Origin: Saksenaea vasiformis B4078
Taxonomy: Eukaryota; Mucoromycota; Mucoromycetes; Mucorales; Saksenaeaceae
Length of the DNA: 64,000 nt
Assembly: GCA_000697055.1 (NCBI GenBank)
Contig: JNDT01001889.1
Span: forward strand, 1 to 64,000
Direction: 5' to 3'
Shown here piece by piece: positions 6,043-18,923 of the stretch. Within the stretch, counting starts at the first letter, position 1. Each line of letters starts with the position of its first letter. The position numbers and the translations under genes were made by a program. Under the pieces are notes generated by a model, which did no database searches, was not told where the DNA came from, and saw only the letters and a list, made by a program, of their open reading frames with translations.

Positions 6043-6277
6043 ACTGGTTGCGCAAGGATGGATCAATGGGAGGATAGCTTGCAAAGTAAGGTATGTTAGC
6101 TACTTATTCTGATTAATGAAAATCTTAGAGCTTACCGTAAGGCTAGCTGGTACATGGTCTTGAGATTGCATTCACCTTGCGGGACCCTCAAGTTGGAAGG
6201 TAAAGGTGTGAAAATTTCACGGGCACAAAAATTAGTTATTGGACTGCGAACTTGACGTGTTACACACCTGGTCACCT

Positions 6278-6296
6278 ACTGGCGCGAAAGCCCAGT
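6278..6296 (-). other. Stem-loop 25-43 bp downstream of the Fanzor relic
   Basis: On the minus strand the sequence ACTGGGCTTTCGCGCCAGT folds into a hairpin: five pairs ACTGG/CCAGT, then GC/GC across one bulged G, closing a TTTC loop. In characterised Fanzor and TnpB loci the guide RNA scaffold overlaps or follows the 3' end of the nuclease gene, so position and structure fit a candidate omega-RNA scaffold. Functional assignment is inference. Confidence 0.35.
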
Positions 6297-6320
6297 TCAC
6301 TTATCTAGGTGGACTTATCG

Positions 6321-7313
6321 TCATAAACGTCTTGATGGACGGATGAAGCGCGATGGACGCTTCCTACGTGCTAGCATGGAAGCGATAATTGCAGCTATAT
6401 TGTGCGTCGCATTCCCTTCGCGGTGGAAGAAGTCCTTACAAACGTCACAGGCGAGGGTACGTAAGATATCTTGTTCTCTATGGTCCGTTAATCGCTGAAA
6501 AAGTTGAGCACGCAGGCTCCTCCCCGCTGGAGATGTCGATAGCAAATTTTGGATGCATTATACTCATCAACACGGCATATTCGTGCTGTCTGTTTGAGGC
6601 TGTGCTATGTTTTCTCAGTCTTTCCATCAGTCTACTATCCATGGAAGGTAAGGCCCCTCGTCTGCTGCCGGGAATCGTATCGTCCATTCCAAATGAAAGG
6701 ATTATTGGTTTACATTGTTTGCATGCCGACTTTGACGATCTATCTGACGGATATTTCGTGGATTTGATTATTCTCATGCAAGCTTTATTCAGAGCAGAAT
6801 GCGTGGACAGCGAAGTGTCCCAACTACGACGCATGACTGACCTATTGTTATAGAAATCACGGAGGCAGAAGCTGCAGTGATCTTCTTGCCAAGCACGGAT
6901 GTACAGCAATAGATTGACCACGTGAGATCGTTGGGATCCACAGCTTAAAGCCGTCTTGTCTTCTTCAATGCCGTATTTGCCTTTACGATCATCCAACCAA
7001 ATGCTATTCATTGCATTTCTTCCGTAAATCTCGTTTTGCTTCACAGCCAATTGTACATCCTGACGTTCTGATATGGCTGGCTCGGAAAAGGACGCTGCAC
7101 TATAGGTTTTACCAAGGTCAAGACCAGCGACCTGGTCATAATTAGAAAGATATGTTCGTTGACGGAGGATTGCTTTCTTGCTTTTCTCGTTGGCGAAGCA
7201 TTCGTTTCTCAGGAAACCATCCGTTTGAAACGTGGATTCGGCAATGAACCTTGTTAACTGTATGTCAGGTATACGCTTACGTAATCTCCTTTTGTAAACT
7301 ATTGGTCCTCTTC
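6321..7313 (-). pseudogene. Fanzor (eukaryotic TnpB-like RuvC nuclease) relic
   Basis: The minus strand carries the ordered hallmarks of a TnpB/Fanzor nuclease. RuvC-I is QVAGLDLGKTYSAA (Asp codon 7119-7117), followed by LAVKQNEIYGRNAMNSIWLD, which resembles the xLxVKQ...xNWL block of fungal Fanzors, and then RSWD. RuvC-II is VDEYNASKIC (Glu codon 6565-6563). The end is a zinc-ribbon/RuvC-III block CDVCKDFFHREGNATHNIAA (6449-6400), matching the HRDxNAAxNI consensus. The motifs lie in three successive frames, consistent with two 1-base deletions (between about 6640 and 6585, and between about 6550 and 6520). The RuvC-III Asp is replaced by Glu (codon 6419-6417) and the first zinc CxxC is damaged (CYRH). 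Upstream of 7313 in-frame stops (TGA at 7314-7312 and 7341-7339) interrupt the N-terminus. It is an inactive copy; Fanzor1 versus Fanzor2 was not decided. Confidence 0.8.
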
Positions 7314-7831
7314 AGGATATTGTTCTTCTTTTCATTGGTCACCGCCTTGACCGCAACGTTGAATAAGAAGGCAAAACTATCACCTCGTTTCGAGACTGTA
7401 GCTGGGGTGATAAGAATTGAGGGTACGTTACACGGAGTACCTCCGTCACACCTGCCATAGTGAGAATGCAAGAAAGCCATTCTAAAGGAGGGCAGCGTCT
7501 CTTTGTTGCGGATTTAATTATGTTCTTGCTCGAGTTAACAAGTTCCCCCAAAAATTAGAGATAGTTATATCGCGCACCCACTGTATGTAATGTCTAGAGA
7601 TTCTTTGGCGCGCCAAAAGATGCAGTTGACCGGAACAATCGCTGTTATCTGACAGTACAAACACGTTTGTAGGGAAAATGCCTATTAGATTCAGGGAAAA
7701 CTTGTTGAAGGAGACAATATGTGATGTGCAATCGCGCATAGTCTGTATAATCTTTGGACATTCTGAAGAACTTCGTATTCTCTAAGCTTCTCTTTCAGCT
7801 CAAGAAGGGCTAGGCGATTGTCATCATCAGT
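7314..7831. other. Noncoding or decayed DNA upstream of the Fanzor relic
   Basis: Only short, interrupted reading frames are present. The frame continuous with the relic has two stops but a long open stretch at 7551-7339, which could be a decayed N-terminal half of the Fanzor. No promoter motif or RNA gene was recognised. Confidence 0.4.
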
Positions 7832-16581: not shown

Positions 16582-18923
16582 TTGCTTACTCCTTATCACT
16601 ACTATCACACTAACACGATGCACAATCTATTGAACAGGACATACGACTCCAAGAAGAATGTGGTCCAGACGGTCCAGGCTGAGGCCAAGGAGCTGAATTT
16701 TGCAGTCGGTACAAGGCGTAGCAATGACCGCAACATTTACTTGCAATGTGTTCATGGCGGTAAAATCGAAATACCCATGGGGTCATCTCTGACAACCGCC
16801 AACGCATTCAAACAACAAAGAAAATAGACTGCAACTGGTATCTGCGGGCAGCGTTCAAAGCCGAAACGAGAAAGTGGACGATTTGTACACGTTGCATCTT
16901 TAAATGAACACAATCACCAACTCGACAAGGATCCGATTTTCTACCACCAGCATCGCAAGTCAACCGCGGCGATGGTCGAACGTGTGACATCCATGACCAG
17001 CAATAGGAACAAACCATCCAAGATTCATGAAGAGCTAAGAAGCAATGCTGGCAATGAAATTATTATTACAAGAAAAGATTTGTACAATCTCATGCAAATC
17101 TTGCGAGATCAACGTAAAAGCAACTTTGTGGATCTTATCGAATTTCTGAACAAGCGTAATTATGAGATTGCCTGTAAAATCAGCGACAACAACCAACTCG
17201 ATGCGTTCTTCTTTAGCCATGAAGCAGCGATTGATAAGGCCCGGAGATTCCATGAGGTGGTCGTAATGGATGCAACGTACAGTACCAATATCAATAAGAT
17301 GCCTTTGGTAAACATTGTTGGAGTTGGCAACTTAGGAACCAGTCGGTTATCAAACTTCCTAATCAGTTCAGTATTCGTCGTCAACGACACAAGCGAAACA
17401 TACGAGTGGATTCTTCAAACGATGCAATCTCTCTTATGGTCACAACAGCGTGTTGGCCTCATCATCACTGACAATGACAAAGCGTTAGTCGGTGCTGTTG
17501 AAAAAGTATTTCCAGAATCAGTACATATTCTGTGTTGATGGCATATTTCACAGCACCTGCAGTCAAAGATGGCGGGATGTCTTGGAAAGAAGAGCGAAGA
17601 GTATGACGAGCTGCAAAAAAAAACAATCATAACGATGGTGTACAATCGCAAGGAGGATGCTTTTAACAAAGCAGAATCGGAATATCGCAACTTGGCAAAA
17701 CTTGCGGGCGTGGCATACGCAAGTAGCAAAGACAAAATACCTGTCAAAAAAGATACAAATGATGTGAAACAGAAGAACAACGACGAAGAAGAGAAAAAGA
17801 AAGCATCGAATGAAAAAGCTGTAGCAGCCAAAATGGAAGCAAAAATCCTTGAACACTTCGATAGGTAATATTAATATGATTATTCAATTGATATACTAAA
17901 ATCTTTGGAAGCGTGCTAGAATATAAAGAAAAACGGGCGGGACCATACGCTGGCAACCACCTTACGCTTGGTGTACGCTCTACGCAACGAGTCGAAGGGA
18001 CACACTGGCGAATTAAGGACACTATGCAAACTACGAGCAGCCTCATGCGAACAATAAACTTCATTGATGATGTGATCCGACGTACAGTAAGTCGCCTTTC
18101 GACGCGATTAATGCGCAGGAATTATGCTAACAGCATTCAAATAGTATATGGTCGAACGAAAAGACTTTCTGAATGAGAAATACAAACGGCCAATTTTGAT
18201 GACGACGAATATAGTGCCATGGCTGAACTTTTTGGCAAAGTCTCATTTTTTGCGATCAACATGGTTAGGACTGAGCTGAAAAAAGCCTGGAAGAATGCCA
18301 CCAATGACATTGAAAGGGAGAGCGGCAGTTTGTGATTGTGATGCTAAGATCTGCTTTGCGCTTCCTGTCAACATATGCTACCACTCTCTGGTGCTGGTGC
18401 TATTGGAATTGATATGATCCCCGGACGTTGGCATCTAGAGTATTCGGAAGGTACGCAAGTAAAATTTATGCTGTTATTTTGATTAATGTTATGTACTCCA
18501 AAACTTGTAGATCATTTTCCATTAACAAAGGTGGCACTTACAGAAGAAGTTCAGAAGAGCGCAACAACTCTTTTCGAACGGATACAAAACGTACTAGACG
18601 AATCCGAAACCAATCATTAGAAGATTGAAATAATCCAAGCTATCAATTCGAAACTGGATACCCTGAAGAGTACAGCCATGGATGAAGTGAAAATTCCTAG
18701 CATCGTTAAAACAAAAGTCCGCCCTGAATCAACCAGTGGAAAGCGAATCGGATCTCAGTTTGAGTCTGAAGAAAAGAAAATCAGGAAAGAGTCTCAAATG
18801 AAGAAGGCAGAAATCATTGAAGGCGAATCCGAGGATGCACTTTCTGAAACTAGTGTGTATGTTTTGCCGGGAAAGAGAGACCTTAAAGACAAATATCTGG
18901 AGAGCATTAAATCCAAAAGGTAA
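16582..18923 (+). pseudogene. MULE transposase (FAR1-DDE-SWIM), frameshifted
   Basis: Segments in order: 16582-16827 (N-terminus); a FAR1-like WRKY-GCM1 zinc finger split over frames (CNWYLRAAF...KWTI...NEHNHQLD, 16832-16925); 16972-17538 with the MULE DDE core (VVMDATYSTNINKMPLVNIV, then IITDNDKALVGAVEKVFPES, ending HILC). A TGA at 17537-17539 falls exactly where the family continues C-x-(W/F)-H. The frame resumes after it as WHISQHLQ, then 17569-17868. A further exon at 17913-18176 contains HLTLGVRSTQRVEGTHWRIK. A CDC...CYH SWIM-type finger is seen near 18334-18382, and 18678-18923 is a charged linker. Two frameshifts in the FAR1 part and the TGA make it inactive as read. Confidence 0.75.

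Follow-up and report, generated by a model that had tools for sequence, protein, structure and literature searches.

Probable MULE-type transposons joining EXO1-like and Fanzor nucleases, traced from a decayed gene fragment in Saksenaea vasiformis

Background

What kind of element left the Fanzor-like remnant that lies on the minus strand near the start of contig JNDT01001889.1 of Saksenaea vasiformis B4078? The original prediction, made from the letters of a 64,000-nucleotide stretch of this contig (positions 1 to 64,000, hereafter the window), read it as the dead copy of a plain Fanzor, the eukaryotic counterpart of the TnpB nuclease, carried by a transposon. According to the text of PMC3627910, Fanzor1 elements are plentiful in Mucorales, and some of them (ROr-4, PBl-3 and MCi-4) resemble MuDR elements, having target duplications of 9 bp and lacking a MuDR transposase; the same text gives the Fanzor motif as D-X(125,275)-[TS][TS]-xx-C4 zinc finger-X(5,50)-RD.

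In this report, we compare the remnant with its relatives in the same genome. Our main finding, which we regard as likely, is that the remnant in the window is a dead copy, truncated at its 5' end, of a DNA transposon of MULE type, and that fuller members of its family join an EXO1-like nuclease to a Fanzor nuclease. A structured tail that follows the gene is examined as a candidate guide-RNA scaffold, and a mechanism is tentatively proposed.

Results

The window copy and its damage

The remnant is a 5'-truncated, frame-broken fragment of a Fanzor-type gene (Table 1). All four motifs that the original prediction had listed in order on the minus strand (GLDLGK, LAVKQNEIYGRNAMNSIWLD, RVDEYNASKICYRH and CDVCKDFFHREGNATHNI) were located in the window. 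Its extent had been put at 6321 to 7313; this interval falls inside the homologous stretch, which is wider, running from about 7425 to about 6204 with 80.0 and 80.6% nucleotide identity to the relatives L022 and L021, respectively. The RuvC exon of a relative matched the window by tblastn at 2e-91, with frames in matching order, and a 277-aa piece of the window gave at least 29 matches, itself included, in its own 38.7-Mb assembly, the best non-self match being at 7.3e-91 with 72% identity. Because of these two values, the motif match is not due to chance.

Table 1. Features of the Fanzor-type fragment in the window
Feature	Position	Strand	Basis or comparison
Surviving element fragment: Fanzor RuvC half and 3' tail	6204..7425	-	Nucleotide alignment to L022, L021
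Region before RuvC-I, KRGDSFAFLFNV ... YKRRLRKRIPD, split over two frames	7264..7390	-	tblastn
RuvC-I GLDLGK, Asp kept	7108..7125	-	Aligns with GLDLGE/GLDFGE of relatives
Conserved block LAVKQNEIYGRNAMNSIWLD	6991..7050	-	Aligned with relatives
RuvC-II and first zinc knuckle RVDEYNASKICYRH	6533..6574	-	Relatives read RVDEYNTSKICCRC
RuvC-III with the second zinc knuckle, CDVCKDFFHREGNATHNI; Glu in place of the catalytic Asp	6396..6449	-	Relative reads CDACSGFFHRDGSAAHNI
C-terminus FIRPSRRL and stop codon	6321..6347	-	Coordinates from window sequence
Non-coding 3' tail that overlaps the element's right end (candidate guide-RNA scaffold)	6204..6320	-	Identity to C401 tail, A1 alignment

The expected damage is real: two one-base frame changes lie between RuvC-II and the zinc ribbon, RuvC-III has its D-to-E change, and the zinc ligands, CCRC in relatives, read CYRH. 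This list was incomplete, however, since comparison with the nearest copies adds a deletion of about 64 nt, small frame changes further upstream and the absence of the 5' half. The RuvC-II segment keeps its Glu and has altered zinc ligands and one altered residue of the TS pair, so that the window copy departs from the Fanzor motif (D...TSxx-C4-RD in short) by AS for TS, altered zinc ligands and RE for RD. With its frames broken, the Asp replaced, the ligands altered and the 5' half gone, the copy is dead, as had been supposed.

Pfam searches with five pieces of the window returned no TnpB/Fanzor profile and no relevant family; Rfam found 0 families in the window, and no match to the XPG or REC parts of the relatives was found there at E 0.01. 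The profile search proposed as a check thus fails on the window pieces and succeeds on the relatives, which match PF07282. As a profile test on the window alone would fail, the Fanzor assignment needs the relatives. Further along the window, the MULE transposase model PF10551 matches 17257-17553 on the plus strand at 80.6 bits, in a frame that a single stop interrupts.

Two families of relatives of Fanzor type

The relatives fall into two families that are about 30% identical to each other and have different element ends. Family A comprises the window copy and those on C618, C277, C401, C289, C545, C567, C501, C580, C662, C161 and C283; family B comprises C428, C232, C395, C376, C238, C434 and C418, and its copies are 96-98% identical. 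Elements measure 5.6 and 6.0 kb in family A (two copies with both ends) and 7.5-8.1 kb in family B (three copies with both ends), C395 holding extra DNA. The expectation that living relatives might be in the genome was half right: relatives are present, but the copies whose frames are listed (C226 and C637 left out) all have frame breaks.

Their TnpB/Fanzor type agrees with the original prediction. PF07282 (Cas12f1-like TNB, cut-off 26.3 bits) scores 30.4 on L024, 30.3 on L026 and 25.3 on L032, two of these three RuvC ends passing the cut-off, and our profile A3 matches the Spizellomyces Fanzor SpuFz1 (8gkh) at E 0.0037 across RuvC-II, zinc ribbon and RuvC-III, with DEYxTSxxC..RC and RDxxxxxN...SML...RP.xFxR shared in the alignment. 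Designed repeat proteins occupy the top PDB rows for A3; they were rejected since no single stretch passes the threshold, and SpuFz1, called Fanzor1 in a legend of PMC10432273, is the best PDB match that has a passing stretch. L024 reads as the published motif throughout: D25 (counted by hand), T213 S214, C217, C220, C249, C252 and R258 D259. Viral contigs searched with A3 and with A4, the profile of the N-terminal part described below, gave 47 and 91 pattern matches, respectively, and no confirmed relative.

TnpB/Fanzor-type sequences are numerous in this genome, with at least 137 PF07282 matches at E <= 0.001 among the 150 that were scored of 388 candidates. One of another family, L046, has an unbroken Fanzor-like frame of 772 aa 395 bases past the end of the window (L046 96-2414, equal to C419 64395-66713, minus strand); it scores 32.5 bits with PF07282, reads NRDVNAARNI and has no XPG match in Pfam.

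Element ends of MULE type

The Fanzor-bearing copies C618 and C277 have inverted end repeats of 22 and 16 matched positions, with one mismatch each. Exact direct repeats of 9-10 bases accompany four of five end pairs, namely those two and the short elements C377 and C368, which are without Fanzor; the C377 repeat lies some bases outside the usual ends. No target duplication was found at the fifth end pair, C180, or at three family-B copies (0/3), and seven other family-A copies showed no left end within the DNA examined. The window copy itself is without element ends. Throughout the genome, the terminal pattern occurs 56 times at up to three mismatches, versus 0 for the reversed control. One end on C49 adjoins a MULE transposase (PF10551, 43.4 bits) that reads the other way, and a PF10551 match lies on the opposite strand 1.7 kb beyond the XPG part of C545; there is none within C618 and C277, and the matches elsewhere in the genome, that of C545 included, number 48. 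The fragment was indeed transposon-borne: the elements that house its subfamily are of MULE type and are flanked by target duplications of 9 bp.

Three further observations concern these ends. In the A6 ends, a set without L023, the window, L022 and C280, 9 of the 11 copies (L047, L051, L054, L056-L063) have, just 5' of an internal AGGTGC, a base that is the Watson-Crick complement of the one directly following the terminal CACCT (binomial P 1e-4 for a pairing seen by eye and picked after seeing it). Most of the element is about 95% identical between C277 and C618, and the C277 tail (L025) resembles those of L021 and L022, not that of L024, as if ends had been swapped between subfamilies. Finally, the C401 Fanzor element has a MULE-type end (L027 410-548, minus strand) some 570 bases beyond its own right end, on the same strand.

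A structured tail follows the gene

In family A, about 130 nt are kept after the stop codon. The window tail is 83% identical to the C401 tail over 6210-6313, its last 20 nt or so being lost or altered. Four of five single tail folds are alike, that of the window differing, and single-fold z-scores are modest (-1.3 to -2.7; -2.0 in family B). An RNAalifold consensus was discarded: its covariation term was only -0.29 and its second helix came from other columns. Because this consensus was weak and its second helix different, the fold common to the four was used.

Pairing was counted on the structure of L024, which is itself one of the counted sequences, a choice that favours structure. In 10 of 12 tails (A1; L030 and L026 dropped), 91.6% of 215 cells were paired versus 30-42% for slid versions; five pairs had changed on both sides (as many in 60 of 500 shuffles), and 12 cells were changed on both sides versus 4.0 expected (0 of 500 shuffles). 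For 23 tails the corresponding values were 90.1% of 465 cells, 7 pairs (24/500) and 20 cells versus 6.1 (0/500), and for the 13 tails that cover the first-hairpin region (A7) 88.8% of 312 cells, 8 pairs (5/500) and 18 cells versus 5.5 (0/500). Further pair types showed no excess over shuffles in any set: 7 versus 9.0 expected in the 10 tails (500/500), 321/500 in the 23 and 202/500 in the 13. A conserved tail that covaries in accordance with its predicted fold follows the gene, at the right end of the element.

The tail is found at 40 places among the matches listed, 11 at known family copies and 29 without known Fanzor part, 17 of the latter (16 and C49) having been examined. As the first hairpin is also present, with different letters in both arms, on C49 and at C401:410-548, the structured end is shared by a wider family of MULEs. 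Two other places, C476:117053-117174 and C567:31809-31923, have tails of the Fanzor-linked type with the first hairpin and no Fanzor part nearby among the matches listed; they are possibly non-autonomous elements that keep the structured end.

The concerted change of the arms argues for a role as a single strand, most simply RNA, and the tail is a candidate guide-RNA scaffold. Since the same end stands on MULEs without Fanzor, the RNA role is one that we infer, and the tail may serve another purpose. It is indeed conceivable, with a probability that we place only a little short of even, that the fusion described below is real and that the tail is just a MULE end, used by the transposase or in replication, with no guide RNA involved. 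The 29 tail places without known Fanzor part fit such an end, as do the hairpins at C401:410-548 and on C49, beside an oppositely reading transposase. A double-stranded binding site, however, would not require its arms to covary; moreover, in family B, where the ends are different, the tails of L035 and the diverged L037 agree at 199/230 non-coding positions versus 149/201 coding positions just before. It is these last two observations that speak for the scaffold reading.

Both nuclease parts lie in one gene

Among the matches listed, 20 places hold the XPG-like part, and at 17 of them a Fanzor part follows downstream, no more than 7 kb away and in the same orientation, the exceptions being C5, C462 and C551; C57 and C567 may be one locus counted twice, because their scores are identical. 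GT-AG introns, recognized by eye, separate XPG-I, a short exon, a long H3TH-REC exon and the RuvC exon ('REC-like' being a label by position only; Pfam finds 0 families in the long exons). From the H3TH motif into the REC-like part, a single open frame extends over 783 aa in C376, 775 aa in C238 and 767 aa in C232. Summing exon lengths by hand, fuller members would encode one protein of about 1,500 aa with XPG-N, XPG-I, H3TH, REC-like part, RuvC and zinc ribbon.

The same arrangement exists in an annotated protein of Apophysomyces ossiformis, also of the Mucorales (EC973_000314, here P0001; 1036 aa long and 53% identical over 89% of the query), the sole match among 7981 scored protein-database candidates. 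In it, XPG-I, H3TH, the REC-like part and RuvC-I are linked at the junctions seen in the Saksenaea copies; because it is without both outer ends, the full set of domains stands in no one record. A family-A read used in two protein searches gave nothing at E <= 0.001 among 7998 and 3092 candidates; these searches are insensitive, since they did not recover P0001 either. Compared with the PDB by phmmer, P0001 and L046 gave unrelated weak matches only.

These gene structures place both predicted nuclease parts in one gene. The original prediction was right as to Fanzor type and missed the EXO1/XPG-like N-terminus, the MULE type and the structured tail. Could its plain Fanzor nevertheless be the whole story, the XPG-like gene upstream being a separate neighbour that some elements captured? 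The window, which holds the RuvC end only, would be compatible with this, as would the three XPG-like places without Fanzor part and the XPG-free L046 on the same contig. We judge it unlikely, however, as one unbroken exon spans H3TH and the REC-like part in three copies, P0001 joins XPG-I to RuvC-I, and the association recurs in two families of low mutual identity and different ends. A single gene for both nucleases remains our preferred reading.

The N-terminal part resembles Exonuclease 1

Upstream of the Fanzor half, both families have a start of the form MGxKGLHxF, with the marks of XPG/EXO1 nucleases: (I/L/V)D(F/V), DG or DA, FEADP, xDGDL or DGEP, and NDY. Single sequences match Pfam XPG models below the curated cut-offs wherever bits are shown: C428 matches XPG_N at E 0.003 over positions 1-99 of 101 (18.5 bits, cut-off 22), and P0001, an unaltered database protein, XPG_I at E 2.1e-4 (22.1 bits, cut-off 24.9). 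Of the five rows of A4, three of which are read across frame breaks with X, four match XPG_I (best 2.3e-5) and one XPG_N; unrelated or distant Pfam models match one row each, the best being XRN_N at 0.007. As a profile, A4 finds Exonuclease 1 in five distinct sequences (7e-7 to 8e-6), then Rad2 at 0.1, and nothing else to E 1. Its alignment with Exonuclease 1 (3qea, which we take to be the human enzyme, and others) begins at profile position 64, takes in the DG motif, EAD and DSDL, and reaches the H3TH motif. The genome's own XPG-type host genes are at five other places.

XPG-N, XPG-I and H3TH follow in order, and in the rows that span them each of the seven presumed catalytic positions (taken, like the residue roles, from FEN1) is Asp or Glu; P0001 begins after the first two of the seven. 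The part is predicted to be a 5' nuclease like those of EXO1/FEN1 type. A degenerate XPG fold that binds branched DNA and does not cut it seems improbable to us: similarity to known XPG nucleases is low, and C277 reads SDGEP where others read xDGDL (Glu for one Asp), yet the seven acidic positions are kept, together with the EXO1-like EAD, xDGDL and NDY, and these favour an active 5' nuclease.

Selection on both parts, and decay

For the XPG exon, C277 against six other family-A copies gives pN 0.21-0.29 and pS 0.68-0.89 (102-117 codons compared), and against C401 pN 0.38 and pS 0.93. For the RuvC exon, C618 against C277, L021, L022, L023, L030, L040 and the window, the seven pairs in which dS could be computed, gives omega 0.17-0.28, the value for the window being 0.19. 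Between subfamilies, synonymous sites are near saturation and the amino acids of both parts are held; the acidic residues at the predicted catalytic positions are likewise retained in both nuclease parts. Close pairs look unconstrained, with omega 1.15 for the XPG exon of C277 and C618 and 0.32-0.93 within family B, a sign of decaying copies.

Discussion

The least tenable alternative, that the gene is no Fanzor or TnpB at all but another RuvC or zinc-ribbon protein, might invoke the failure of the window pieces to match a TnpB/Fanzor profile and the designed repeat proteins heading the A3 rows, but it is very improbable given that those rows have no single passing stretch, that relatives exceed the PF07282 cut-off and that L024 reads D...TSxx-C4-RD.

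As to what a Fanzor gene with an EXO1-like N-terminus would do, we put forward a two-nuclease mechanism as a hypothesis drawn from sequence. The tail would be the scaffold of a guide RNA, with its 3' guide read from flanking DNA. RuvC would then cut a site that matches the guide, such as the donor site left empty by excision, and the EXO1-like part would trim the 5' strand at this cut. Such trimming would favour a repair in which the sister copy serves as template and the element is restored, so that it would be kept, or would home. For excision and insertion the element would probably depend on a resident MULE transposase that uses the same ends and acts in trans. Taken together, the protein would be a new kind of RNA-guided effector in eukaryotes that unites an EXO1-type 5' nuclease and a Fanzor and cuts and resects in one step, and its scaffold would be the structured MULE end, so that MULEs with the same end and no Fanzor, transposase-coding ones included, could be served in trans. 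We offer this full reading as tentative, and would sooner doubt than trust it as a whole. If it is true, nature itself would have fused a Fanzor-type cutter to a DNA end-resection enzyme and would offer a single-protein cut-and-resect design; the purpose of Fanzors for eukaryotic transposons would become directly testable, as the EXO1-like partner predicts a cut meant for resection and copy repair.

Family A fits the MuDR-like Mucorales Fanzor1 elements of Bao and Jurka 2013 (PMC3627910), the comparison being one of descriptions only. With Fanzor1 it shares the RuvC-I Asp, the RuvC-II Glu, the TS-xx-C4 zinc ribbon, RD and carriage by DNA transposons; it differs by the EXO1/XPG-like N-terminus and by a protein about twice the 772 aa of L046. 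Neither XPG nor FEN1 is mentioned in the main texts, as distinct from the protein supplements, of PMC10711439, PMC10432273 (Saito et al. 2023) and PMC3627910. A full-text literature search, with many subscription papers and bioRxiv-only preprints outside its scope, found no Fanzor-XPG fusion, and nothing in open full texts for Fanzor with Mucoromycota; TnpB with FEN1 or flap endonuclease, and Fanzor with transposon, exonuclease and fungi, led only to papers that, by title and the start of the abstract, are on other subjects.

With Exonuclease 1 and XPG (Rad2), the likeness lies in the order XPG-N, XPG-I, H3TH, in EAD, xDGDL and NDY, and in the A4 match of 7e-7; the difference is that the part described here is carried by a transposon, with a Fanzor after it. 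Academ transposons are eukaryotic DNA transposons that also carry an XPG nuclease, and to our knowledge they have no Fanzor part; literature searches on this point listed only papers with titles on unrelated topics. In TnpB elements of IS605-IS607 type, the omega RNA is a structured tail that follows the nuclease gene and closes the element on the right. The candidate scaffold resembles it in having a conserved predicted secondary structure after the gene that ends at the element's end; it differs in standing also on elements without known Fanzor part. Finally, MuDR/MULE elements share the inverted ends, the 9-bp target duplications and, in the resident transposase-coding MULE, the very same end, but C618 and C277 have no PF10551 match, and their cargo is a two-nuclease gene.
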